A DNA stretch of 64,000 bases from Hypomesus transpacificus (taxonomy: Eukaryota > Chordata > Actinopteri > Osmeriformes > Osmeridae), in assembly GCF_021917145.1 (NCBI RefSeq), contig NC_061063.1:7454876-7518875 (forward strand). The letters are read 5' to 3'. How positions within the stretch are numbered: the first letter of the stretch is position 1; each line of letters starts with the position of its first letter. The translations under genes and the position numbers were made by a program. Shown here piece after piece: positions 8,701-47,993 of the stretch. Below the pieces are notes generated by a model. The model worked only from the letters and a program-made list of their open reading frames with translations, was not told where the DNA came from and did not search any database.

Positions 8701-11700
8701 AGAGAGGAGGTTAAAAAAAAAGCACAGAAAAAGACAACTTTGAGAAATAAAGTCACTCATTTGTTGTCCAATTCCTTACAGCCTGCAACGTTACCATCCA
8801 TAACCGCTGTAGAGACACATTGCCTAACTGTGCCAAGATGAAACAGAGGGTAAGATCCCTTTACACAATATTATGTGTTTGACAAACACATCCATTCATA
8901 CTAAATATTCACTGTGTTCACTGGGTTCATACAACAATGGACATTTGTATTTAAATCTGTGTCATTTATGCATTTTAACATTTAACGCTTACTCACGCTG
9001 ACCTTATGGTATAGTTTGCTAGATGCATTGTAGCTAGCTAGCACATGTAGCTAAACTCTCCTCATATCCACAGCAACAAAAGATGGCTCTCATGAGGAAC
9101 AACTCCTCCAATGTTACTCTTCGTACCAAAAGTGAGTCGAAACGCACCAACGAGTGGCCCACTCCACTAACCCTACACAACATGTTCGATGAAATGGCAA
9201 ATACATGTTGAGTCGTTGATATGAAACTGCTCCTCCTATTCCTTCGCCTCACCCCCCTGCCTCACCTCCCTGCCTCACCCCCCTGCCTCACCCCCCTGCC
9301 TCACCCCCCTGCCTTACCCCCCTGCCTCACCTCCCTGCCTCACCCCCCTGCCTCATCCCCCTGCCTCACCCTCCTGCCTCACCCCCTGCCTTACCCCCCT
9401 GCCTCCCCCCCTGCCTCACCTCCCTGCCTCACCCCCCTGCCTCACCCCCTGCCTTACCCCCCTGCCTCCCCCCCTGCCTCACCCCCCTGCCTCAACCCCT
9501 GCCTTACCCCCCTGCCTCCCCCCCTGCCTCACCCCCCTGCCTCACCCCCTCCCCAGCCCCCCTGATGAGGGAGCGGCCCAGCTCAGCCATCTACCACTCA
9601 GACAGCCTCCGCCAGTCCCTGCTCGGCTCCCGTCGTGGACGCTCAGGCCTCTCCCTCTCCAAGAGCGTCTCCACCAATAATATTGCAGGGTGAGTTCTGA
9701 CTCCGCCCACATGGCCTGTGCTCTAGAACTGGGTGGAGTTATTGGAGATCCCCTGCTAAGGATAGGTGGGATTGCTACACTGGAGAAAGAAAATATAATG
9801 TTGGAACCAAATTGTTTGGTCAAAATGTTGGTGGTGTTTGTGATTTTATGAGTACCCTTTGGGCTTAGTCCATAAATAACCAAAAGTTTAAAGGTTTTAC
9901 GGTTTTAGCCTAACACCCTTTCAAAATAATTATAATAAAGATAATGATAATAAAAATAGACCACAGATAATAATAAATAACAAAGCCAACATGAGAGAGG
10001 TGTGATGTTGACAGACATATTTTAACCCATGCATGACGACTCATCTTTGTGTGTGTGCGTTTGTGTGTCAGGACACAAGCATGAATAGTGTAATTCACAG
10101 TGGTCATTGATTGGTATGTATTGTACATATGTGTGCCATTGTAATTGTGTTTTGTGTTGTGTCTTTTATGTGTGTTTGTGTCTGCTTGGGTTTCTGCTCC
10201 ATCTATGAATTTTCTTGTTGTGATTGGATTTATATCTGTGTTTGTTGTGGGTGTGTTTGTACATGTGTATAAATGTACACTCAATGTCTTGGGATTAATT
10301 ATTTTGTTTGGATGGATGTTATTTACACATGCATGTCATGTATGTGTGTGAGTGTGTGTGTTTGTGTGTGGTGTGTGTGTTTGTATGCTTCTATATACGT
10401 GTGCTTGCATGTGAATGTATATCCCTGTGTCTTGCTGCCTGTGTGTGTGTGTGTGTGTCCTGGTCCATGCGTCTGTATAGGAGCCTGAATGATGACTCTC
10501 CCCTGGGCCTGCGTAGGATCCTGTCCCAGTCCACAGACTCCCTGAACTTCAAGAACAGAGCCATGTCCATGGAGTCTCTCAACGACGAGGGTGAGACTGA
10601 GCTCTGTTCAACACAAACCAGATGTCCTAACAGAAAAACAAGTCTGCCAGTAAACCCACCGAGCCCTCTGTTTCGGACGGCTGTTTGTATTTGTGATTTT
10701 ACCAATGTGTCGTCTCTTGCCGATCCAAATGTTTGGATCGATAAGAGGTCGATGTAACGTGGACTTCTGCCTTCAGGAGAAGTCTACTACGCCTCGATGC
10801 TGGAGGAGATGGAGATAGAGGGGCGGGACTTTGAGGCAGACTCTTGGAGCATGGCGGTGGACTCCGCCTACCTCCAGACGCATCGCAAAGACGTCATCAA
10901 GAGGCAGGACGTCATCTACGGTGAGAACGCCCTCCCCCCCCCCCTCGGACAATTGACTTCTGTCTTTGGAGCAGTTCTCTTCACTTCAACATCTCTTCAC
11001 CCGAAACGCGCGTGTAAAAGTCTGACCTCCCCTCCTCCTCCTCCTCCGCCCCCCCCCCCCCCCCCCCCTCAGAGCTGATCCAGACGGAGCTGCACCACGT
11101 GCGGACGCTCCGCATCATGGAGCGAGTGTTCCGCCAGGGCATGCTGGAAGAGGTGCAGCTGGAGCCGGGCGTGGTGCACGCCATCTTCCCCTGCCTGGAC
11201 CGCCTGATGGCACTGCACGGCCGCTTCCTGGCGCAGCTTCTGACCCGGCGCAACCACAGCCTGGAGCCGGGCTCCTCGTACAACTTCACCATGCACCAGC
11301 TGGGCGACGTGCTGCTGGAGCAGGTAACACACGGGACATATGCGCGGGACGGCACACGTGCGCACTGTACGCGTGACGCCGCTCCGCCCAGTTGAAAGAT
11401 TCTACAGTTTTCCTGACACTCAGAATTCCCTGAGACCCTGAGTTTCTGTTTCTGGAAGCGGTGCAGAATAAAACGCTGCACACACAGTTGTTGCGGCTGA
11501 AGACCTGCTGTTGGCGGTTCATTACTGTGTGTGTGTTCTAGTTCTCAGGCCAGTATGCTGATGAGATGAGGAAGACTTATGCCGAGTTCTGCAGTCGACA
11601 CCTGAAGGCTGTTAAACTGTACAAGGAGCTGCTGGCCAGAGACAAGAGGTTCCAGTACTTCATACGGGTGAGCATACGTCCTTGCTAGTTCCCTGAATAG

Positions 11701-20478: not shown

Positions 20479-32267
<11,789 letters not shown>

Positions 32268-34266
32268 AATTGTTGGAGTCCACTAGATCCCTCCTTCTCC
32301 TCCTTACTCACTCATCTGATTTCTCTCTCTTCTTGCTTCCTTTTCCTCACTCTTGTCACTCTCTGGCTTTCTCATATACTTTCTGCTGCAGAAACTACTT
32401 TCTGTGTGCAAATTGCACTGGGATTTCACCCCGGCAATGCTGACCACTTAAACATATTTGTGCCACTGTCTGAAGTCTTTAGCCATTTGATGAAACACTG
32501 GGTTCAAAGTATTTGTTCCACCATTATTGTTAATCAGTAAAAATACACTTACAGCACCGTTTAAGTTTTTTTTTTGGTACCGATAAGGCCTAATTTGAAC
32601 AAAGAACGGTCTAAACAAATCTGGTGAAAAGGCACAGATGATAATGTACACAAAATTATACTTTTTTTCTGCTTCACATTTAGTTGCTGGTTGACTCATG
32701 GCCCAGCTCCATTCTAGCTCTGTGCCCTGTCATTCACAGATCAGAAAAGATTAAGACTGGGGGTGAATCTTTACTTACTACTATGTTAAATGGAGCCACC
32801 AACATACTGGGAAGTGTTGATGCATCATTTCTGATTGCTGGGTTTGGGGCATTCATGCATTCTCCCTTCCATTTCATACGAATGTGTTTTGGGATCAAGA
32901 CCACTTTGGGTTATCCATCCTGAGGACTTCTGCAGTTAAATGTGTTCTTTTTCAAATGTTTTTTTGGTTTGTGTATTTCCTAGGTAAATTTGTTTTTGAT
33001 TATCATACTTGTGTCCTCATTAGTCCTATACCCATATCTACTTTTACCAAACACTGCACTTGTATAATACACTAACTGTTGCTCCCACCTCAGTTTTAGA
33101 ATTAAAATCTTGTATACTTAAGATTTATACTGGGTTAAAATGTCATTTGGCTAGATCATGTTATCAAGAATGGATCATTTTATCAAAGTGGGCTGCAAAG
33201 GGGAGTGCATGTCTCACATATAATGGACAGACATTTCAACTGCACAGCTGAAAGTTAAGAGTCTAATGGGAATAGGTCCATGTGAAAACAACTGTAAACA
33301 TGTAAAACTACAAAATTAGGAACACAAGGTTTGAACTGGAAAACTAACTAGAGAGAAATATATGTATAATCACTATGTAACCACGTTCCTTTTTGTATTT
33401 TTTTTGTTTTAAGAATAAAGACCATGATTTTTACGGATATAGAAAAGACTCTGCATCTTCATTGAAGCTGATCAATACACCTACACATCAGCATATAGTG
33501 CCTTTTGCCTCCCATAATATCCTTCTGGGGAAATACTCCTGTGCAGTGGCGGTCCTAGCACATTTGGCGCCCCGGGCAAGGTTTTCGCCAGCCATACGAA
33601 ACAAGCGACCGACACGACAAAGGTTGTGCGATACCGCAAACGCACTACCTTTTTTTAAGCCAGCAGAGGGAGCCAAACACAAGTCAAATGGAAAATTCTG
33701 CCCCTCTCCTCTTCCGTGACTAAAACTGCCCCTGCTCCTGTGGCCCCTCTGCAACTTCATCAAACATTACAAAGGAAGTGCCACGCAGTAAGGTAGGCTA
33801 AGTGGACGAGGGAAGATACGTCTATTAGTGCTTTCGGCCTGCTACGAGACCGAACGAGATTCTTATGGGGTGAAAGCTAGCAATTGTCTTTTGGTTACCG
33901 TGTCAAATTATTTCCATGAAAGAGGGTACAATTTATCCAAGTGGCAGTGGCACCACAGAGCCCTGACAGACACCCACCGGGGACTGTATAGAGTAACACA
34001 TTGACGTGTCATGAGATTACATGTTTTCCTTGATCTCGTGTTCATGCAAAACCATAATACGATTTTGAATAGCTTATATAATATTTTCTGGATATAATGA
34101 ACTTCACTTTTAAGGTTTTGAATAACCAGGTCCGTCCAGTAATGCCACACAACAGTCTAATCGAAATTTGGCGCAACCAATTAGTTTGACGGGCGCAACC
34201 CAGGTGTGCGTATTCAGTCAATTGACTTCCGAGCTTGATTGACAACTGCACGGGTAGCCCTATATT
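32268..34266 (+). other. tpm3 3'UTR and gap to next gene, with a likely repeat fragment
   Basis: To about 33435 this is tpm3 3'UTR. The rest has no gene that I can support. A segment near 33545-33600 (GGCGGTCCTAGCACATTTGG, then GCGCCCCGGGCAAGG) looks like an interspersed fish repeat fragment, recognised only by its general character. Confidence 0.4.
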
Positions 34267-37200
34267 ATGAATGATTTGTTAGTTGTATGTAAATGCATTG
34301 CATGCTCCACATTCGTTGCAATAATGATGTGGATCGCAAATATATCATTGGAAGTGCTTTTTTGGATGTCTTGTCATACATCCAACAATGAAGCATCTTT
34401 AGACTCAAGGGCTCTGGAAAATGAAAATAAAATGCATGTGCCCAACTGGAAGTACATCAGAGGTAAGGGTTTGTATAGGGAACATTTAATATATTATTGC
34501 TGTTATTTTAAACCTAAGACAGTGGTAGCACTAGCATGCACACTTAAGCTATGTCACATGGGCCAGTAGAACGCCTCAACTTTAATGAGCCACGTTTACA
34601 TTCTTTAGTAGTTTCTAAGTGCTTTTAACTTTTTTCAGATTCCAAGGCCACCCATGAAAAAGGAATGCAATCTCATTTCAACCAGCCATTGTATCACTGT
34701 GGCCATGAAAGTATTTCAATCAGGCTTCATCTTATCCGACTGGCTGACTTCTACTTCATGAAAGGTGGGGTGGGTTGAACAAGACCTACACGGAAATGGT
34801 GTTCTTTGCTAAAGGTTGTGTTAAGGTTATGCCACTTATTAAAACGGTACTGAAGGTAACATTTGGGCAGAATGTATTTTTTTTTTAAATCTTGCTGCCA
34901 TTCATCTATACAAAGTAAAACAAGTACACTTGGAGGCCACTCCAACAAAAAGCGTAGTATAAATGACTGGTCAACACAAGGTATAGCGGTGGCTGGGCCA
35001 GTTTAACAGGCTCTTGGTGGTCAGTAGTAGATTTTTTAGCCTGTGGTGTGAATGCTTAGCCTGACGTTGTCATACTCATAATTCTAGTCAGAATATGAGT
35101 CTGAGAACTCTCCGTTGGGCTTTGACTACAGGGCGTGTTTCAAACGAGCCTGGAAAACAAATGCCTCTTCGCTCAATTGGATAGATCTACAACCAATCAG
35201 AGCAACATAGTATGTGACGTATGTTAAGCACCACATAGTTGTTGTCAACAGAACTAAACTACAAGCAGACTTGAAGTATGCTTGAAGAATGAATACAAAC
35301 GATTTTTGCCGGTGTTGTAAAATTAATTTAAGGGTAGGGAGAGTACTTGTTCACACGGTCAACCTTTTTGAGCGAAACAATAAAGGGCAATGCATATACG
35401 AACAAGTTCTCCATTTAGGATTACAACTCCATCGGGGCCAGCTGATAAATTAAACTTTTACCGAATCCCGTAGGAAGGACGGCAAAAACATATTTTCCAT
35501 TGACAAATGCCTTGATTGCGTCTCTCTGTTCCTCTTTCAAAATTAATGCGCTGTCGATGTCTTCTAAAACAGACTCGATGGCAGAATCATAACATCCCAG
35601 ATCTCCAGCGGTAGCCATGTTTGTTCAAAACGAATTCAACTTAAACGCTCTTTTGTGACGTGGGTGATTACGTTACTGTTGATCATCTGTCCATCATCCT
35701 ATAAAGCCCGCCCGGCAATTTAATTGGTTCGCCCAGATTCTGGTTTTCTGTAGTTGGTCCCCAATACGAGACCCTCCAGACCCAACTTCCCGACCAAATT
35801 TTTTTTTGGGCGGGGAGAAGTTGGGCTGGCAGCCAGGCTAGTGAATGCTGACAAACCTGCTTGAAAGACAAGATCCAGGTTCCTGTACAGAAGGGCCTTG
35901 ATTTTCCTGAGACAGTATTATATAATTGTAACTTTTGGATGAAGTTTAACAGTGGACACCACTTTTCCCAGGTACATTACCTCCACTCTCACTGAGAATG
36001 TTACCAAAAGAGTGCCACTATGTTGAGATGGAACGTGGGCCATGGCTGCTGATTAGGTTATCCTACCAAGGTTGCTACATAACCCAGTGGGTATGTAAGA
36101 TTGTTTCATGTGATTGTAATGTATGCGATACCATTTGTACGCTACTTCAGCTACAAAGAAAGGCCTTTTTGGCCAAGGTTTGTTTGCCTTGTGCCTCATA
36201 GGAAAGAAAAGCTTTTGCATGACAACTACTCTGAAAAAGCTAGAAATTTCTCATCTTCATATGCTTTTTTCCAGATTGATGGGGCAGTCCAGTACCATTC
36301 TATGAATCTGATGTACTTTGATCGTCTCCTGATGAAGAATGTGACAGGCAATGCAATTTGTCAGACTCCAACCACCTCTCCTACCACTGAGGTTAGCTGT
36401 GGAAAGAAGAGCATGACTGTAAAGCTACCAGCTGGAACCCATAGGACTATGAGAGTGCTTGGTTAGTGCTGCATTTGTCTTGGCCTGTTGGAATACTATG
36501 TTTCATACGTCACTCAACATAATCCCCATTTTGTCTGATCTTGTAAATCTTTGATTCATGAAACTCTCTTCTTGGTGTGTGGTGTTTAAATACACCTGCA
36601 ACTCAAATTGCAAGCCTTTTGGTGGTAAAACTGGCAAGTCCATTGAGGGGTATAAAAGGACCAAAGATTGAACCTGAGTGCAAGTGAAGGAGGGCCCAAG
36701 CAATATGACTGGTGATCTTGAATGTATCGTGTTTACTTGACATTTGTTTACTCTGAAGGTCCACAAGCGCCGGATGAATACAATGTATCACAATTGGCGA
36801 GTAGTGATGCTTTGTTTGTGAAGTTTTCACAAAAAGTAAAGGTAAAGGCTTTATTTAAACATACTAGATTTTTTTTATTACCAAACTATTGAAAACATCT
36901 AATCAGATTGCATGTTATCTCCATTTCAGACAGAGTACGACGGTATGTCCCTGCAACTTGTATATCAGAACTTTGCTGGAGAGATGTCCACTGTGAAGAT
37001 ATCGTGTTCCTCCAGACATCCCAAGTCAAGGCGTTTCACAAGAGAGGTTGATGAAACTTTTTTGGATCTTTGGGATTTTCAAGACATTGCACCATACATT
37101 CAAGATGAGACCAGCAAAGCTCACTCAAGTTTTGAGTACTATGGTTTCCGGGATATGCCTACAGCTCCTTATGTTCCTAACTTGGCACCTCAGACTACAA

Positions 37201-40200
37201 AACGAGCACAAACTGCCCCCACCTGGCCATCACTGACCAAAACATTTCCTACACGCTCCCCTGCCCCAAATGTCCTAGACGATGAGTTCTGTGGTTTCCA
37301 ACAACTGTTTGATATTCCTTGTGTTCCTGCCACAATATCACTGACTAAGAAACCAGTGCCAACCACCACCTCCACTATGCCACTGACCAAAATACCATCT
37401 GCCATGGTAGAGCTATTTGATTTTGAGTACTATAGTTTCGAAGATATGCCAACAGCTCCTTATAGTCCTACCTTGGCACCTCAGACTACAAAACAAGCAC
37501 AAACTGCCCCCACCTGGCCATCACTGACCAAAACATTTCCTACACGCTCCCCTGCCCCAAATGTCCTAGATGAGTTCTGTGTTTTCCAACAACTGTTTGC
37601 TATTCCTTGTGTTCCTGCCACAATATCACTGACTAAGAAACCAGTGCCAACCACCACCTCCACTATGCCACTGACCAAAATACCATCTACCATGGTAGAG
37701 CTATATGATTTTGAGTACTATGGTTTCGTAGATATGCCTATAGCTCCTTATGTTCCTACCCTAGCACCTCGGACTACAAAACCAGCAACCGCAAGGCCAA
37801 GAGAAACCAAAACTCCAGACTCTACCTGCGTCCCTGCAATAAGAATACCAACATTTGAGTTCTGGTGTTTCCAAGATATGTCTACTGTTCCTTATGATCC
37901 CACTATCTCAATGCCGGAGCCCACCACCACCACCACGACGACAGCGGAGCCCTGGACCACCACCACCACGACAGTGGAGCCCTGCACCACCACCACCACG
38001 ACAGTGGAGCCCTGCACCACCACCACCACGACAGTGGAGCCCTGCACCACCACCACCACGACAGCGGAGCCCACCACCACCACCACGACAGCGGAGCCCT
38101 GCACCACCACCACCACGACAGCGGAGCCCTGCACCACCACCACCACGACAGCGGAGCCCACCACCACCACCACGACAGCGGAGCCCACCACCACCACCAC
38201 GACAGCGGAGCCCACCACCACGACGGCAAAGCCCACCACCACATTAATATGCCATGCCATTCCACCGTCAATCACAATGGATCCAGAAGATCTTGAGTTC
38301 TGTGGATTTCGAGAGGTGCCAACTGTTTCTCCTAATCCTACCATAGCATGCCCAACAACCATGCCACACCCCGCTGAAGGAATAGATCCAGAAGATCTTG
38401 AGTTCTGTGGATTTAAAGAGGTTCCCACCACCACCACGACAGCGGAGCCCACCACCACCACCACGACAGCGGAGCCCACCACCACCACCACGACAGCGGA
38501 GCCCACCACCACCACCACGACAGCGGAGCCCACCACCACCACCACGACAGCGGAGCCCACCACCACCACCACGACAGCGGAGCCGACCACCACCACCACG
38601 ACAGCGGAGCCCACCACCACCACCACGACAGCGGTGCCCACCACCACGACGGCAAAGCCCACCACCACCACGACGACAGCGGAGCCCACCACGACGGCAA
38701 AGCCCACCACCACGACAGCGGAGCCCACCACCACCACCACGACAGCGGAGCCCACCACCACCACCACGACAGCGGAGCCCACCACCACCACGACAGCGGA
38801 GCCCACCACCACCACCACGACAGCGGAGCCCACCACCACGACGGCAAAGCCCACCACCACATTAATATGCCATGCCATTCCACCGTCAATCACAATGGAT
38901 CCAGAAGATCTTGAGTTCTGTGGATTTCGAGAGGTGCCAACTGTTTCTCCTAATCCTACCATAGCATGCCCAACAACCATGCCACACCCCGCTGAAGGAA
39001 TAGATCCAGAAGATCTTGAGTTCTGTGGATTTAAAGAGGTTCCCACCACCACCACGACAGCGGAGCCCACCACCACGACAGCGGAGCCCACCACCACGAC
39101 GGCAAAGCTCACCACCACCACCACGACAGCGGAGCCCACCACCACCACGACAGCGGAGCCCACCACCACGACAGCGGAGCCCACCACCACCACCACGACA
39201 GCGGAGCCCACCACCACGACGGCAAAGCCCAGCACCACATTAATATGCCATGCCATTCCACCGTCAATCACAATGGATCCAGAAGATCTTGAGTTCTGTG
39301 GATTTCGAGAGGTGCCAACTGTTTCTCCTAATCCTACCATAGCATGCCCAACAACCATGCCACACCCCGCTGAAGGAATAGATCCAGAAGATCTTGAGTT
39401 CTGTGGATTTAAAGAGGTTCCCACCACCTCCACGACAGTGGAGCCCACCACCACGACAGCGGAGCCCACCACCACCACCACGACAGCGGAGCCCACAACC
39501 ACGACGGCAAAGCCCACCACCACCACCACGACAGCGGAGCCCACCACAACGACAGCAGAGCCCACCACCACGACAGCGGAGCCCACCACCACATTAATAT
39601 GCCATGCCATTCCACCGTCAATCACAATGGATCCAGAAGATCTTGAGTTCTGTGGATTTCGAGAGGTGCCAACTGTTTCTCCTAATCCTACCATAGCATG
39701 CCCAACAACCATGCCACACCCCGCTGAAGGAATAGATCCAGAAGATCTTGAGTTCTGTGGATTTAAAGAGGTTCCCACCACCACCACGACAGCGGAGCCC
39801 ACCACCACGACAGCGGAGCCCACCACCACGACGGCAAAGCCCACCACCACCACCACGACAGCGGAGCCATGCCCCACCACCACCACGACAGCGGAGCCCA
39901 ACAACCCCACCACCACGACAGCGGAGCCCAGCCCACCACCACCACCCACCAGCCCACCACCACGACAGCGGAGCCCACCACCACGACGGCAAAGCCCAGC
40001 ACCACATTAATATGCCATGCCATTCCACCGTCAATCACAATGGATCCAGAAGATCTTGAGTTCTGTGGATTTCGAGAGGTGCCAACTGTTTCTCCTAATC
40101 CTACCATAGCATGCCCAACAACCATGCCACACCCCGCTGAAGGAATAGATCCAGAAGATCTTGAGTTCTGTGGATTTAAAGAGGTTCCCACCACCACCAC

Positions 40201-40366
40201 GACAGCGGAGCCCACCACCACCACCATCACGACAGCGGAGCCCACCACCACGACGGCAAAGCCCACCACCACATTAATATGCCATGTCATGCCACCGTCA
40301 ATCACAATGGATACAGAAGATCTTGAGTTCTGTGGATTTAAAAAGATGCCTACTGATCTACCATAG
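34267..40366 (+). CDS. Secreted repeat-rich protein with ZP-N-like N-terminal region (unnamed)
   Basis: I do not recognise a named orthologue. Exons: 34267-34462, 34639-34764, 35972-36090, 36275-36461, 36759-36841 and a large last exon 36930-40366; all five junctions keep phase. The first exon gives a hydrophobic N-terminus compatible with a signal peptide. Residues about 85-237 hold a cysteine pattern (LYHCGHES, PKECHYVE, SYQGCYIT, NAICQT, VSCGKK) and a beta-rich YQGCYI...MNLMYFD block reminiscent of ZP-N modules of egg-coat proteins. NVT and NVS sequons occur. The last exon carries two ~97-residue repeats, then Thr/Ala/Glu/Pro mucin-like tracts alternating with ~61-residue modules containing DLEFCGFxEVP twice. 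As read, the frame stops at 40010 after a shift near 39930; the matching frame continues to TAG at 40364-40366. AATAAA follows at 40522. ZP-N kinship is inference. Confidence 0.7.
35289..35453 (+). pseudogene. Cys-rich N-terminal fragment inside transposon, convergent with helicase fragment
   Basis: 54 codons beginning MNTNDFCRCCKINLRVG and continuing LFERNN and LGLQLHRG. The C-x2-C start with a following LFE...LGL pattern is loosely like the first half of ZAD-type zinc-binding domains, but the second cysteine pair is missing. It ends by running into antisense of the helicase fragment, which puts the deletion junction at about 35430-35442. Domain naming is tentative. Confidence 0.5.
35421..35618 (-). 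pseudogene. RecQ-like helicase N-terminal fragment inside transposon
   Basis: 65 codons on the minus strand starting MATAGDLGCYDS. It has a motif-0-like LKEEQRDAIKAF followed by helicase motif I (Walker A) LPTGFGKSLIYQLAP. RecQ helicases have PTGGGKSLCYQLPA at this point. The frame stops three residues later, so every other helicase motif (II-VI), zinc-binding and RQC part is absent. It cannot be a working helicase. It is the truncated 5' end of a transposon-associated gene, or a captured host gene. Confidence 0.75.
37130..37720 (+). repeat. Two tandem ~97-residue coding repeats in the secreted protein
   Basis: A unit of about 290 bp is repeated twice and begins a third time near 37711. Each carries an FEYYGFxDMPTAPY-type motif, TAPTWPSLTKTFPTRSPAPN, a DEFCxFQQLFxIPC motif and a Lys/Thr/Pro linker. 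The two copies are nearly identical over most of their length, pointing to recent duplication or gene conversion. Confidence 0.9.
37915..40273 (+). repeat. Coding minisatellite (Thr tracts) alternating with five near-identical ~183-bp modules
   Basis: Tracts of CCCACCACCACCACCACGAC and AGCGGAG-type units (15, 21, 24 or 27 bp, encoding TTTTTTAEP variants) separate five modules starting near 38243, 38859, 39237, 39593 and 40004, plus a diverged half module at 40270-40366. Each module encodes PPSITMDPEDLEFCGFREVP and then GIDPEDLEFCGFKEVP. Modules look almost identical at DNA level, more alike than selection on protein alone would keep them. The antisense strand stays open for 685 codons only because the repeat lacks stops in that frame. 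Confidence 0.95.
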
Positions 40367-40599
40367 CGTTTGAAACTACAAAGCACCAACCACAACAGGT
40401 GCACCAATCGTAACCATTACAACGTCATGTTGAGAGACTACAATACCAGCAGGACCTGGTACCCCATACTCCTAATTTTCACTACAGCATATTCAATATT
40501 TTGACCCAGCATTGTAACACAAATAAAACAAGGTTGATCGACCTAACAAAGTTTTGACTTGCATTGTACCAAATTTAATTTAGATTTGTCACCCTTTCA

Positions 40600-40840
40600 G
40601 TACAAAGGATCATGGTTTTCTTGCCTTTGTGACCATCTGGTGACCTGGTGTAGCCAGAACAACTTGGAGCTCAACACTCTTAAGACAGTTGAGTTGATTG
40701 TGGATTTCAGAAAGAGCCCAGCCCCACTCATCCCCCATCATCCTGTGTGACTCCCAAGTCAACACCCAGGAGTCCTTCCATTTCCTGGGCATCATCATTT
40801 ATAAGAACCTCAAGTGGGAGCTGAACATCAGCAAGGGATT
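40600..40840 (+). mobile_element. LINE reverse-transcriptase remnant
   Basis: Encodes LVTWCSQNNLELNTLKTVEL, then IVDFRKSPAPLIPHHP. After a frameshift comes a sequence resembling the FLG...LKW segment. This is the late palm/thumb part of non-LTR retrotransposon reverse transcriptases common in fish. It is broken by frameshifts and truncated on both sides, so it is inactive. Confidence 0.75.
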
Positions 40841-41269
40841 TTTTTATTAAGGCCATTTATTTACAGATGCTTATCTAGTTTCTTGCATGCAAAGACCAGC
40901 CTTCTCAGTTTATTGACATCTACAGCATCTGCCCTTCCTTCATCGATACTCTTCCAGTCTCATCTGTTGTTTTTTTGGAGTTCATTGCACTTCTAAGACA
41001 ATCATTGTCCATTTCTCTCATTCTAATATAAATTTTATAGGAAGGCCCCCCAGACAACATACCTGTCAAACTGTCTTTTTGAAACCAGGTTTACCTGCCT
41101 CATAAGGTACCTTCATCTTCAGGCTAAATGGATGTTTAGCTACTACATATTTATATATAGTATAATAATGTATTTATACTTGTGACAGTACAAATAGCCA
41201 ACAACATTGAACATTGACACCAGTAAATGACATTCAGTTCTCAGTAATGCAGTAAGCAACAAAACAAGG

Positions 41270-44200
41270 CTAGTCATCTTCCTCAGACGAGGAGCGTGTT
41301 GCACTCTCATCACGATAACAGCGGGCCAGGATGCGTAGTTGTTCCAGGGACTCATTGAAGTCCCCAAGCTCGGTCCCTTGGGAAAGGAAGTTGTGGGCGA
41401 CTCTACGAGGATCTATGGAGCTAGCGGAGCGCTGCAGCTCGGATAGCCAGGGACCCAAAGCTGGGGTGGACTGGAGGGAGGTCAGGACAGGGAGGGACGA
41501 CACCCCAGGCCAAGACCCTGTAAGAGAGTATGTCAGTAATGCTAATGAATTGAACCCTCCTACAGTCCTGGGGGGGTCAGAACAACCTGATTTTCAGTGT
41601 AACTGAGCACAATAAAAAAAAAAAAAAAAGTTGATTGCTTTAGGGTCAATGTGACCCGAGAATCCTAGTGATATGGGCTGTACCAGTTTCATGTAAGAGA
41701 TTAGACTAAAACCATAATTTGTCTTTTTATTTTTTATTAGTGCATGTTTGGATTAAAAGGATGTTGGAAAGAGTAGTTACTCGGATTTTGTATTCAGTCT
41801 TAAAATTGACTTGTCTTGATTGAAGCACAAAAAAAAGAACATTCCAATGCACAAACACATTGGGCAATCTAGATGTTCATGGTAATATTAACAACCTTGA
41901 TTCATGTCTAATGTCATTGGGATTACAATTTTTTTATTTTGACGTTAAGGGGCACTAAAGAAGAAAACAGCTGATATATTCTATAACTATTTGATTGTAT
42001 TCTACAAGGGGTGGGGGGAAAAATGTATGTCTTCTAGCGATTCACAAAAAAAAAAGTGTGAACCTGGTACCCTTGGTTCAAATCTCACTCAAACCAATTG
42101 ATAATTAATTTAACTGATATCAGTTAAGTAATAGATTTAATTTATATTTTTTACATAATTTTTGTTGTTAATACATTTCATTTAGGCATATATTGAATAC
42201 AAATTTGATAAAAAATCGTGAATTGCGATTTTTTATCTAATAGTGACCAAGAATCGCATCGAATCGTGAGGTACCTAAAGATTCCCACCCCTATATTCTA
42301 CACTTATAGCGTAACATTGTTCCAAATTTTACGTGTTCAACGGTTTAGTTAAAGGATGAGACAAACTGGACCCCGAGTAGGTAATGGGTGTTAGTCAAAC
42401 AAAGGTGAATGTACTCACCGCCAGGGGGATGTACTTGGCTTTGTATTAATCCGTTTTTAGCCAGAGATTGGCTAAATATCTGTGGGAATGGTGATGTAAG
42501 TTTACTGGGGCTGGACACAAGCTGGACTGCTCTGAATAGAGATAAAAAGGAAATAAATGTTTAAGGGGACAATATGCGGTACGTATCTGTAGGGAAAAAA
42601 GTGCATGTACATTTGGGTTTAGGGTGACTCACAGAGGAGTTGTGGGGTAGTAGGAGCTTATATAGGATCCAAGGACGTCTTCTCCATTGCAGAGGCTATG
42701 CAACGGAGTGGGCAGCTGGGTGCTTGGGGTCAGCGAACTGGTGAGCAAACATAAAATCAGAAAAACAACCATCGATCAGTGATTAATAACTCCCTGAGTG
42801 CCCTGAGACCTTTCAGTGTTTGTTACAGTCTAATTGTATGTATATCTAAATGTATCCCTTTTGGCATTATCAACAAACACTACTTTTATAGATTACAGTG
42901 TTGTAAAGGCAAGGTAAAATGCAGCAATGCCCCAAGAGACCCTCACCTGACTAAGCTCTGCCCCTCTAAGCCCCTGAGCGTCACTGATTGGCCAAAACAC
43001 CGTCCGTCGCCTAATTCCGGGCAAGCTGATAGGGGTTTCCAAGGCAGCCCATCAGAACACTCCATCAGGGCACTGGGTAGACAGCTGCCTTGCGCCATGG
43101 GAAAGGGAATGGCACCATGAGCTGCAACCACCTTAAATAGCACACCATGTCATGTCACACAGTACGTACATTTAAAAAAAATAAAGCATTTCATTGCACT
43201 CTTATTTGAGTCTTAACAAATAATTGTGTGCATGGCATAACCTTCTTAACCCTTGTGTTATCTTCGGGTCATTGTGACCCACCGTCGTATTGCGGCAACT
43301 TTACCGGATACAAAAACAAAGTGAAGCATTTTCTTTTAACCGTCAGGCTGTCTCAGACCCCCCACATCGCAAAGGTTAAAAGAAAATGCTTTTTATTTGT
43401 TTTTGTATTGGGTAAAGTTGTCGCAACACAACGATGGTTCATTGTGAACCTTCGGGTCATGTGACCCGAAGATAACACAGGGGGTCAGGTGGCTGAGCGG
43501 TTAGGGAATCGGGCTTGTAATCAGAAGGTTGCCGGTTCGATTCTGGCTGTGACAAATGACGGTGTGTCCTTGGGCAAGGCAATTCACCCTACTTGCCTCG
43601 GGGGGAATGTCCCCGTACTTACTGTAAGTCGCTCTGGATAAGAGCATCTGCTAAACAACAACCTTCTGATTAATAGCCCGACTCCCTAACCGCTCAGCCA
43701 TCTGACCCCCACATAACCTTCTTAAGGTTTTCACACTGCATATGTTTTTTGAAGGAGGGCTCATCTCTCACCTTCCTCCCAGACACGGCCAGCGCATCAG
43801 CCATCTGCCCCATGGTGGTGTTGTGCCTCAGTCTGTAAGGCACAGTCATGGAGTCCAGAGCTAGAGCCAGGACTGCACTGGAGTGGTACCACAATGTGGG
43901 CTGTGACAAAGAGAGACAACAGAAAGGAAAAGGTGCATCAGGTTATTGGAACAATTCATGTCATATCCAGCATCTGTTTTCAACTGATTTAACAGGGTGA
44001 CAAAGGGGAACACCTTTAAAGAGGGGGTTGACCTACGTCGTAACTGAGAAGGGGGAAGGTGGTCGGGGAGGTGGGTCGTCTTCCTAACCCGCCCCTCAAC
44101 GTCAAAGGGCAGAAAAAGGAACTGTGATTGGCCATGTTGATGGTTCCTATGGCGTTGTTCATAAGGTGGTAGACTTCCTTCATTGGAGTCTGTGTATTGG

Positions 44201-46516
44201 ATTAAGGACAAATAATTATAGCAAATTTACACAATTGGAAGAAACTGGCATATAATGAGACAATACTTATAATGAAGGAATAGATCTAATGATCTGTTCT
44301 GTCAAATCACATTTGTCAGTTTCACTCACTGAGTCTCTGTAATTTACTGGTGCAAGTCCCCAGGTAAGAATGCCCCTCCCACTGTAGGAGTCTTGCAGCA
44401 TCTCAGTGACCTTTGAACCCAGCCCTGAGAAGCCATCTGAAAGGTCGCACAGCACTTGAAACCCCTGAGAGGGACAGGCATCAAGATGTCGAAGAGGAAA
44501 GAGTTATTGCCAATGTCATAATAACAGCTAAATAAAATAAGTTATGAAATGTCCACAATGTCCTCACACCCAAAAAAGATAAGCCTGCTTGGTAGCTGTT
44601 GCTTGCAATGTGTTAAGAATGTCATTGTTCAAAATGAACTTGAGTTATACTGTACACTTTGAGATCTATACCCTCTAGCAACAAAAACAGCATACCTTGG
44701 ATCAGTGCAGGGCCCATTTTTGGTGATTTGTGATTCAAAGGGTGAACAGTTACCTGTAGGTAGTCACATTCTTCCACAAAGAAGTGGAGTTTATCCTCCA
44801 GATCATCCAACACTGAGCCTTGCAGTAGAGCCTCCCCTTGGCCAAATGCCTCTAGCCGATGTGCTTCCCTGGACACATAGGTTCAAGTAATTGCCATGTA
44901 CATTTTCCATGTTTGTCTGTGTGTGTTCATCTCTTCAAAATGACTCAAACATATTTTTCACATCAGACTGTGTCCCACTTCAAACCGTGAAGGTGTTGCT
45001 CTCACCCATCATGGTTGTACTGGTTGATAACCAAGATGGTGCGAGGATGCAGGTGGATCCTCAGGAAGTCTGACCACACCCGCACGCTGCCCTCCAGTCT
45101 ATAACCCTTCTGAACTTTCTCCAGACGGCTGTTCACTGTATCCATGGCAACTGCCCCTGCATATAAGTTAGTGATAAATAATACAATGTGTCTGTGGTCA
45201 CGTGAGTGTGAACTCAATTCTATCATTGATTGTTTACGCTAATGTAAGATATTTATCAATATGAAACAGTAAAACCTATATTGAAAGGTGGCTGTCCGGT
45301 GTTTACCTGAACGTTGCTGCAACAAAGATGTGTCAAAGTCAGCTTCAGCCAATATCTCCCCCTTCTGGACACAAAGAACAAGAAATCATAGATCTTCAAT
45401 AGCAGCCTGGGGGCAAAATTCAGGTCAGAAACACAGTAGCTGCAAATTCAGCCCTTATGGCTCCCAAACTCTAGTTAGAAACACTTCAAAACTTATAGGA
45501 ATGTATGCAAAATGGTGATGGCCTCACCTACCTAGCTACTAATCATGAAAACAGATGTATAATTTCATCACAAAATATCATATAACTAAACATTACACTC
45601 ACATCTATCTTTTCCAGGTCTTTGAGGAATGAGTTTTTTGATGAGGGGCTTTCTTTGTGCATCATCACATTCCCTTTCCTGCAGCAGGGAGATACGAAAA
45701 CATATAATGATGCACGACACACACGCATCCATAAGTACACACCCAACACACACACTATACCATGTCAAGGCAGTAGGTTCTCTCCCGGTTTCATAAAGGC
45801 ATCCTTCCTGTCGTAGTGTCTGAAGACTTCCTGAAAATCACAAACATGCAGACAAGGGTAGTTTCCAGTACCTGCAGCAGCTATGACCCACATTTTAACC
45901 TAGAAACATTAATGAGCAGATTCGGTTTCCTGAAACAACGTGTGCTGTAAGAATCGTCCATCCACTAAAGTTTAAGGGAGGTTACAAGTTACCTTTTAGG
46001 TCCATGGAGATGAGGCGTGGCGTGTAAGTGACATACCCTCCCAGGGTCTGTCCCTCTCTGAACATTTCATTACACTGTAGTTCGCTAGGGGGCGAGTCTG
46101 GGTCGTATGACAAAGCGGCATCCTAATTCATTACAAAGGAGGGTAGCCTGGATCAGAAAGATTGCTCCTTCATATGTAAAATGTATCATTTTGCGTTATT
46201 TACACGTTTTCAAACATATTTGCTAATATCGTCATGCCGTTACTTTTGGTAGCTACTGTACACAACACATGCTAAGTTAACAAACTATAACTGTATAGCC
46301 TATGTCACGAATAGCTAGCTAGCTGACCAGCTATCAAGCTTTGTGTCTGCGGTTGTTCCTTGCATTTTTGGTTCATGCTAGTTCTACAGACAGTCGTTAC
46401 CGTAACAAAAGCTAGAGTATAACGATACTTGCTTGTAAATTCCACCAATGTGTTCCTACAAAGTTGGAGTAGTGCCCTAGTTGAAAAGTGATCACTTCTC
46501 TACAAAAGCTACCCAT
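41270..46516 (-). CDS. msto1: Misato, mitochondrial distribution and morphology regulator
   Basis: Tubulin-related protein needed for normal mitochondrial network shape. Exons on the minus strand: 46516-46433, 46122-45993, 45830-45761, 45678-45603, 45364-45307, 45156-45006, 44868-44754, 44464-44330, 44189-44037, 43900-43772, 43131-42947, 42737-42633, 42531-42419, 41517-41270. All phases agree and give 583 residues (human 570). Diagnostic segments: [20 protein letters not shown] at the N-terminus, [73 protein letters not shown] and [20 protein letters not shown]. Intron 1 appears to start with GC, not GT. The start ATG at 46516 is chosen because it opens the conserved N-terminal strand. Confidence 0.96.
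42190..42297. mobile_element. Probable DNA-transposon end or MITE fragment
   Basis: AT-rich sequence with internal self-complementary AATCG motifs that ends GAGGTACCTAAAGATTCCCA then CCCCTA. This resembles the ends of abundant fish hAT-type elements. It lies just downstream of the msto1 exon 13 donor, in intron 13. Assignment is from general appearance only. Confidence 0.35.
43248..43484. mobile_element. Long palindromic MITE, about 100-bp arms
   Basis: The left side (CTTGTGTTATCTTCGGGTCA, then GTGACCC, CGGCAACTTTACC, ACAAAAACAAA, AGCATTTTCTTTTAACC) reappears as reverse complement on the right (GGTTAAAAGAAAATGCT to GGGTCATGTGACCCGAAGAT, then AACACAGG). The arms meet around 43343-43373. The right end carries a further inner palindrome, CTTCGGGTCATGTGACCCGAAG. 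It lies in msto1 intron 10. Confidence 0.85.
43485..43716 (+). mobile_element. tRNA-derived SINE joined to an inverted partial SINE head
   Basis: 43485-43655 is a full SINE: box A TGGCTGAGCGGTTAGGG, CTTGTAA in an anticodon-loop-like position, box B GGTTCGATTC and tail GTCGCTCTGGATAAGAGC. It follows directly on the MITE right end. From about 43660 to 43712 the reverse complement of the SINE head appears (CCGCTCAGCCATCTGACCCC), making a second, nested palindrome. Confidence 0.85.
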
Positions 46517-47300
46517 ACTTGCTGGAACGAGTTGTTAAACTAGGCTTGCAATTACGATTTGTGATATAACTAGCTGACTGTCTAACAGAGTATTCGTCTG
46601 ATTCATTTAAAAGTTATTAGAACAAATGTATGAGGATGCCCCAAACGAAAACATGACAGCATTGCCAGATCAATCTAACGTGCTGCTGAACAGTTAACTA
46701 TCTGGATCCAACCCTCGCAAACTGTTAGGCGTCAACTATTGGATAGGATAAGGAGCTTTCAAAACAACTATTGGCTATACGAAATGTCCTCGACAATGTA
46801 GAACACAGTGTAACCAAACTACATAGAGACGGCTGTGCACCGCACATGGGTTACAGTGGGCGTACAGAGCCTTTTCGGACCAAAATAAGTTAAGCGTTAG
46901 ACCACATGGAATTGTAAATAAAATATTTCAATTTGTAGCGATTTACTTGTCGAAAATTCTTCTAAATGTAGGCCTATTTGTTACGCCGGTGTTAAACGTT
47001 CGCAAAAGCACACATTATGGCCAGTGTGGCTGTAGCTGTTGTTTCAAAAGGGGAACGATTTGTTCACTGAAATAGCCACATGTAATCTCTACAGTGCAGA
47101 ATACACAACGCAGTACGTGTCGCAGTTGCATTCTGGTTTATAGGATTAAAGGAGTTAATAAAATAAACTTGCTGGCATTAACATTGTAGCATTCACCCTA
47201 CAATGAATTTTGAGTGTAGGATATTAATTCACGAATATAATAAGTAAACACAAAATAATAGGCTACGTCACTAGGGGTGGAGTCATGAACAATCAAGTCT
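46517..47300. promoter_or_regulatory. Shared msto1/tmem79 head-to-head 5' region
   Basis: The msto1 start (minus) at 46516 and the probable tmem79 first exon (plus, ending 47456) face away from each other across less than 1 kb. No further gene is visible. This arrangement suggests a shared or bidirectional promoter region. I cannot point to specific factor sites with confidence. Confidence 0.4.
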
Positions 47301-47993
47301 TCCCAACAATGATTTACCTGTCGGTGGCCACACCTGTTCAACAACTAAGGTTACTTTTTCTTCCGAGTTCCTTATTTACGTCGTCAGATCAAAAGTCATA
47401 TTCTTACTGCTTACTTTGAACTTCTCTGTTTACTTTTTCTGCGGCGAAAAACCACGGTAAGTTCACCGACTAGATTGTTTTATTATGTCCTAAATATTGT
47501 AGGCTACATAGGCTAGATTTTTTACCTGTTTTGTTGGTTCACAGATTATGAGTAACTGCCCACATGAAACGTACAGTTTAGCGTATTATATCCGAATCAA
47601 ACCATGGTTATCGACATTCATGTGCTTTTCGACATTTTGTTCCCGAAAGAGCCTGTTCGTATTAGGAAATTAATATCGCCTAATTTTAGCATGTTATGAA
47701 GACATCATTATAACAATTTGCTATTAGCATTAGACCAATACTAGTTCAAGCACACACATAAAAAAACAAACATATTTCTTTCCTGCAGGGAAATCAGATC
47801 AAGCCTGTGGAGATACACTGGTGCAGAGATTATGCAGATCTAAATCATTGAGGACAGCATACTGAGACATGAGAGGATAACTAATATAGCATTCCTTAAG
47901 GTTTTCCCTGAAGTTACACCTTAGGCTGCATGTAAATAGCCTGAAACAAATATAAACACACGGTATACTTGTTGACACCGTTCTCTCCATTTA

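Follow-up and report, generated by a model that had tools for sequence, protein, structure and literature searches.

A Putative Coat Protein Gene of Hypomesus transpacificus with Two ZP-N-Type Domains and a Long Thr-Rich Repeat Tail

Gene model and orthologue

In the 64,000-nucleotide stretch of Hypomesus transpacificus analyzed here (NC_061063.1, positions 7,454,876 to 7,518,875; hereafter, the window), a six-exon gene lies on the + strand at 34267 to 40366 and, as judged from its sequence, is a real gene with one frame problem in its tail. Its predicted product combines a hydrophobic leader, two tandem ZP-N-type domains, and a long Thr-rich tail. Exon 1 (34267 to 34462), delimited by an open reading frame (ORF) and a GT donor, encodes the signal-peptide-like N terminus and the beginning of a linker, and exon 2 (34639 to 34764), which matches exon 2 of a paralogue without gaps, begins the first ZP-N domain, with Cys1 at residue 86 (34698 to 34700). 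Exon 3 (35972 to 36090) carries Cys2 and a Y-x-G-C motif with Cys3, together with the stretch matching Pfam family PF22821 (residues 112 to 148), and exon 4 (36275 to 36461) ends the first domain (Cys4, 36359 to 36361) and begins the second (Cys at 36398 to 36400). The middle part of the second domain is encoded by exon 5 (36759 to 36841), which has 83 bases versus 119 in the modeled paralogue and is without two inner cysteines. Finally, exon 6 (36930 to 40010, the frame of the head up to its stop) encodes the end of the second domain (Cys at 37005 to 37007), diverged modules, and the Thr-rich tail.

All five introns are of the GT-AG type, with phases 1, 1, 0, 1, and 0; neither the head nor any splice site is disrupted in the window, and the stop-to-stop frame of exon 6 comprises 1035 intact codons. 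Besides the hydrophobic leader, residues 1 to 285 contain ten cysteines and three sequons for N-glycosylation. An earlier note on this DNA, drawn from its letters alone, had described a signal peptide and six exons keeping phase; the hydrophobic N terminus was borne out by Kyte-Doolittle 15-residue means reaching 2.21, and the exons, their introns, and the support of an orthologue sustain the exon model, except that exon 6 does not stay in one frame up to 40366, since a stop occurs at 40010. The start codon is ambiguous, given that the orthologous protein begins at the equivalent of Met20 (34324), which may be the true start of the window protein.

The homologue searches, made with the window protein as the query, covered relatives of about 180 to 2130 residues. 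Queries of 327 residues (E ≤ 1) and 1217 residues (E ≤ 10) retrieved no protein, and a query of 744 residues (E ≤ 1) retrieved one, the two longer queries being scored on residues 75 to 460. The sole match, the uncharacterized protein LOC134006908 of Osmerus eperlanus (record P0001; E = 2.8e-221, the only one at E ≤ 1 among 1732 candidates), shows 89% identity over 97% of window residues 75 to 460, thus providing independent support for the gene model, and its sequence makes it a likely orthologue. It shares the head and the first modules with the window protein and differs in about 32 residues near the N terminus that are absent from the latter and in a tail read in another, His-rich frame with HHHHHDSGA repeats. 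A sequence search of the Protein Data Bank gave no match for the head and only chance-level matches for either domain alone. As far as searched, the lack of a match to any characterized protein that the earlier note had reported therefore still holds, even though a family of paralogues exists in the same genome.

ZP-N-type domains and the paralogue family

Concerning the window protein alone, its head matched PF22821, the ZP1/ZP4 "Ig-like" family that corresponds to the ZP-N1 domain (the letters of chicken ZP1-N1, 6GF6, match it at E = 1.8e-34), over residues 112 to 148 with an E value of 0.0041 and 18 bits. In both smelts, the first domain holds four cysteines with gaps of 36/20/34, compared with 37/21/34 in chicken ZP1-N1, 39/21/34 in human ZP4-N1, and 33/18/32 in ZP2-N1. 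According to PMC6626044, the four cysteines of free ZP-N domains pair 1-4 and 2-3. Counted by eye, a Tyr lies 12 residues after Cys3 in the window protein, and the conserved Tyr of beta-strand F lies 9 residues after Cys3 in 6GF6. In shuffle tests against five references, the first domain stood out solely with human ZP4-N1 (1 of 2000 shuffles as good). The second domain, holding two of the four cysteines, stood out with human ZP2-N1 (0 of 1000 and 1 of 2000); a likeness of this domain to human ZP2-N3 that had been seen by eye was not supported (120 of 1000). Moreover, with a small ZP-N1 profile, the window head outranked each of 5000 shuffles, by 0.9 bit only, and the O. eperlanus head came fifth, behind three shuffles, which we consider suggestive only.

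Several observations weigh against a ZP-N assignment made on these grounds. The PF22821 match of the window head is below the 28-bit cut-off, and that of the O. eperlanus protein (E = 0.017, 16 bits, also below the cut-off) ranks behind a chance-like row in its tail (RDM3_C, 0.0037); chance-like rows of similar E value occur elsewhere, such as TcdB_toxin_midN (0.017, at 40010 to 40363) and DUF3146 (0.0094). The first domain gave 16 of 2000 shuffles as good with 6GF6, a marginal result with human ZP2-N1 (26 of 1000 and 32 of 2000), and 231 and 262 of 2000 with human ZP1-N1 and mouse ZP2-N1, respectively, and the other ZP2 rows did not stand out. Overall, the 14 single-reference comparisons mostly failed, 2 of them having at most 5 of 1000 shuffles as good. 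For the second domain, with half of the expected cysteines, the only Pfam row was C6 (0.049, below the cut-off), and the PF22821 search of the genome (E ≤ 10) gave no match at the window locus. Furthermore, two AlphaFold predictions for the O. eperlanus protein, with a mean pLDDT (predicted local distance difference test) of 33.8 and 31.0, were too poor for use. Taken without the paralogues, the evidence from the window protein is a hint of ZP-N ancestry.

The PF22821 search returned 13 exon matches, two of them over the cut-off and both on contig C17; a third on C17 (14.94 Mb, E = 4.9) and one on C18 were also included, and the remaining nine fell in gene copies on C9 (four C9a and four C9b) and C13 (one). 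Reading the matched regions raised the copies to five at 11.60 to 11.63 Mb and four at 1.20 to 1.22 Mb on C9, plus one on C13 at 77 kb, so that at least ten paralogues have exons matching those of the window gene, nine in tandem arrays on C9 and one on C13. This count includes C9a1, with a broken exon 3 in two overlapping frames, and C9a5, whose last exon stops after 70 residues, and leaves aside two exon-1-like pieces without other exons (L025, 2350; L026, 554). The array at C9:11.604 to 11.634 Mb (L021 to L023) holds at least five closely similar tandem copies with ZP-N and Pro-rich parts, two of them with disturbed frames.

A full model was built for one paralogue on C9 (L013), and the exon ends of the other copies were placed by similarity rather than by checked splice sites. 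The intron phases of L013 are identical to those of the window gene, it matches PF22821 over the cut-off (E = 1.1e-8, 35.9 bits), and its alignment with the window head, ungapped over 66 residues (score, 70), was equaled by none of 5000 shuffles when two of the three gap settings were used and by 2 of 5000 with the third. In a comparison of the window protein with eight paralogue heads (C9a1 and C9a5 being left aside), 0 of 1000 shuffles were as good in seven cases and 1 of 1000 in one, the copy on C13. The first domain of L013 was in turn not equaled by any of 2000 shuffles with human ZP1-N1, chicken ZP1-N1, or human ZP4-N1, and no match resulted with the three ZP2 references, for which between 104 and 950 of 2000 shuffles did as well. 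The paralogue domains 1 and 2 resemble each other (0 of 2000). Less favorable is domain 2 of L013, which is weakly like ZP1-N1 (17 of 2000 with chicken and 65 of 2000 with human) and showed no likeness to the other four references in the shuffle test. Because of the shared phases, the ungapped alignment, and the match of L013 above the Pfam cut-off, the ZP-N relationship of the window gene is supported, the sequence evidence being weak from the window alone and strong via the paralogue. The earlier note had thus rightly suggested this relationship and recognized a Cys pattern, although it described one ZP-N-like region where two ZP-N-type domains can be distinguished.

In the eight aligned paralogue heads, four cysteines are kept in both domains, and the second domain of the window protein keeps the first and the last of this pattern, the inner two being absent. 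Eight of the nine paralogue last exons that were read (all but that of C9a3) encode 277 to 1157 residues with 20 to 30% Pro, and the ninth stops at 70; different from them, the window tail is Thr rich, and C-terminal ends common to the paralogues by eye were not seen in the window. For exons 2 to 4 of six heads, the ratio of nonsynonymous to synonymous substitution rates (dN/dS) was 0.24 to 0.71 in 14 of 15 pairs and 1.49 in the closest pair (six differences), which indicates that the ZP-N exons of the paralogues are under constraint. The window head has seven matches in the genome, all at its own locus; it is therefore single copy, without a close paralogue, different from the C9 arrays. From these comparisons, the window gene is a divergent single-copy member of a smelt family. 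In the common plan of this family, a hydrophobic leader precedes a tandem pair of free ZP-N domains, by sequence of the N-terminal ZP1/ZP4 type, and a single long last exon encodes low-complexity repeats, with no ZP module found. The domain is of a known kind, and its unusual arrangement is common to at least ten paralogues.

The repeat tail, its reading frame, and the surroundings of the gene

In exon 6, modules occupy some 280 residues and are followed by a tail of 697 residues with 41% Thr and 15.5% Pro. A 288-bp tandem unit with FEYYGF/DEFCGF modules is present in 2.3 copies at 37130 to 37787 (+); its first two copies (37134 to 37712) differ by nine nonsynonymous codons versus one synonymous codon and by one 3-base indel, which is suggestive of fast change, the differences being too few for a test. 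Thr/Pro-rich arrays extend from 37915 to 40005 (+) with five 177-bp blocks, which start at 38244, 38862, 39240, 39594, and 40007 (the fifth ending at 40183 and lying in a frame other than that of the head), are 100% identical, and contain two DLEFCGF modules each. The Thr tracts between them differ in length (38244 to 40183). The identity of the blocks may reflect a very recent spread, gene conversion, or smoothing during assembly. These repeats agree with the Thr-rich tracts and repeated modules of the earlier note.

The DLEFCGF modules of the exon 6 region number 11: eight are in the frame of the head, which they keep in common with older diverged modules up to 39764, and three lie beyond 40010 in another frame. 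The frame of the head stops at 40010, not at 40366, and the array continues in the different frame from 40011 to 40366 (+), with the three modules and a stop at 40364 to 40366. Since the Thr repeat is irregular just upstream of 40010, in a stretch within which the reading frame changes (39866 to 39985, +, with approximate limits set by eye), the break may reflect either a mistake of assembly or a genuine frameshift. The frame of the head is the likelier coding frame of the tail, as it is shared by 8 of the 11 DLEFCGF modules and by those that are older and diverged.

This frame break, like the His-rich frame of the O. eperlanus tail, counts against an intact coat protein and could instead point to a decaying, partly pseudogenized family member whose tail is a mere minisatellite; the second domain without two cysteines that the paralogues have, as well as the excess of nonsynonymous codon differences between the 288-bp copies, would fit such a decay. 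However, the window shows no damage to the head, to any splice site, or to the 1035 codons of exon 6, and a second smelt keeps the head and first modules at 89%. Up to 39764, the DLEFCGF modules and the older ones are in one frame, that of the head, and the assembly of long repeats could yield such a garbled stretch. We therefore regard decay as rather improbable.

The composition of the tail also bears on its supposed mucin-like nature, which stood with regard to the Thr and Pro content; nevertheless, the hallmark of secreted mucins is an extended Thr/Ser/Pro tandem repeat that keeps a single frame, and the corresponding 697 residues of the window protein belong to a frame that breaks at 40010. 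Pfam scans of the head, of 37083 to 37910 and 40010 to 40363, and of the O. eperlanus protein revealed no mucin-associated domain. Taken alone, the tail fits a secreted mucus role equally well, a further point against an egg coat: the gene could encode a secreted protein of mucus or of a surface coat unrelated to the egg, in which ZP-N domains were recruited to hold a mucin-like tail in the mucus of skin, gill, or gut. The O. eperlanus genome paper (PMC11966098) reports gill RNA, no transcript of the window gene having been seen. Conversely, according to PMC9154058, free ZP-N domains are reported from egg coats only and a nonreproductive protein with duplicated ZP-N domains is not known, and the paralogue tails are mostly Pro rich rather than mucin-like; a mucus protein is thus unlikely, though worth keeping in mind.

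A further alternative is that the gene is an ordinary ZP1/ZP4 gene, its trefoil and ZP module having escaped notice or being located farther downstream. Avian ZP1 presents the order ZP-N1, P/Q-rich repeats, trefoil, and ZP module (PMC6626044), and in a gene on C17 a ZP-N1 exon occurs together with a Pro-rich frame and, on the strand of the gene, a weak match to ZP-C (E = 0.0013, below the cut-off). Against this, the three + frames of 40367 to 47901 contain no ZP family, Misato domains occupy the - strand of the same stretch, and a control search of the genome for ZP-C (PF00100) gave at least 72 exon matches, none of those listed being on the window contig (C4) or on C9. Those on C13 (1.42 and 7.08 Mb) are far from the paralogue at 77 kb. 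Scans of 28000 to 34267 (+) and of 40367 to 47901 on both strands likewise gave no ZP family, and three-frame scans downstream of parts of the C9 clusters gave no ZP module. An ordinary ZP1/ZP4 gene is accordingly highly improbable here.

Large ZP gene clusters, with many ZP-C exons at positions below 140 kb, were noticed on C116 and C188. On C17 (15.234 to 15.263 Mb, - strand; L030 to L032), two genes each show a ZP-N1 exon that exceeds the cut-off of PF22821 and, after it, Pro-rich frames of low complexity, with retroelement domains (reverse transcriptase and integrase) downstream of the first; the sequence of the second, which has the weak ZP-C match, suggests a full ZP1/4-type gene keeping ZP-N1 in fish. 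The two above-cut-off matches on C17 are of a different, ZP1/4-like kind from the smelt repeat-tail family.

Upstream of the gene, RhoGEF matches lie at 11.07 to 12.07 kb (+) in what we take to be arhgef2. Some 1.5 kb before the first of them, a 13-bp unit (GCCTCACCCCCCT) is repeated in tandem about 24 times (9246 to 9564), and tropomyosin-like matches below the cut-off occur at about 29.6 and 30.7 kb (+). Downstream, the - strand carries the Misato matches (about 45.0 to 46.5 kb) and, near 59.2 to 60.4 kb, MADS-box letters recognized by pattern, presumably of mef2d. ORFs resembling tmem79 had no Pfam match, and the ORF resembling mef2d had only a row below the cut-off. Intron 2 holds, at 35424 to 35624 (-), a DEAD-helicase-like fragment just under the 26-bit cut-off (Pfam DEAD, E = 9.5e-6, 25.9 bits), probably part of a mobile element. 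Pieces at 40547 to 40860 resemble, by eye, the reverse transcriptase of a long interspersed nuclear element (LINE), the tested piece (40547 to 40747) having no Pfam match.

Putative role in the egg envelope

Abalone VERL likewise has ZP-N domains, present as many repeats in an egg coat, and differs by having a ZP module. Among vertebrate proteins, the ZP-N1 domain of ZP1/ZP4 offers four cysteines with nearly equal spacing and Y-x-x-C at Cys3, and in avian ZP1 a region rich in repeats comes after the N-terminal ZP-N1, an order also seen in the window protein; different from ZP1/ZP4, the latter has a second ZP-N-type domain and a Thr-rich rather than Pro/Gln-rich tail, and neither trefoil nor ZP module was found. 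Tandem free ZP-N domains recall ZP2 (8RKE) and ZPAX, which, however, terminate in a ZP module; the likeness to ZP2 domains in sequence is weak, and human ZP2-N2 has two cysteines only, like the second domain of the window protein. With secreted mucins, the window protein has in common a large Thr/Pro repeat tract. In chicken ZP1, an extra cysteine (C66) between Cys1 and Cys2 cross-links filaments (PMC6626044); since the window protein has no cysteine between Cys1 and Cys2, a covalent bridge of the ZP1 type is unlikely.

Overall, we favor, with fair though not high confidence, the explanation that the window gene encodes a probably secreted, ZP-N-only coat protein, a divergent member of the smelt family, likely of the egg envelope. 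The egg envelope would be its most likely site because PMC9154058 reports free ZP-N domains from proteins of egg coats only. The ZP-N pair may bind other coat proteins or itself. The repeat tail, in which Thr residues are probably O-glycosylated and the FCGF modules contribute scattered cysteines, would extend from the coat as a hydrated, glycosylated, cross-linkable brush or layer.

It is possible to hypothesize, more tentatively and as the less likely case, that smelts carry an undescribed class of egg-envelope proteins, composed only of pairs of free ZP-N domains (ZP1/ZP4 type) and giant tails of repeats. Its members, ten or more paralogues and the Thr-rich outlier, could build a separate outer layer independent of the ZP-module filaments. 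Smelt eggs attach by an adhesive membrane, and this membrane could be such a layer. In the literature searched, such a class is probably undescribed, as nothing was found on LOC134006908 and the titles and abstract openings mentioned no stand-alone ZP-N protein.

For annotation, the gene gives a warning, as the two smelt records differ in the frame assigned to its tail. If the hypothetical class of egg-envelope proteins is real, it would show a vertebrate using ZP-N domains as building blocks in their own right, and it would show that fish do possess N-domains of the ZP1 type. A family of secreted ZP-N-only proteins with changeable tails would offer a natural test of ZP-N function without ZP-C and a handle on lineage-specific layers in the egg envelopes of fish.

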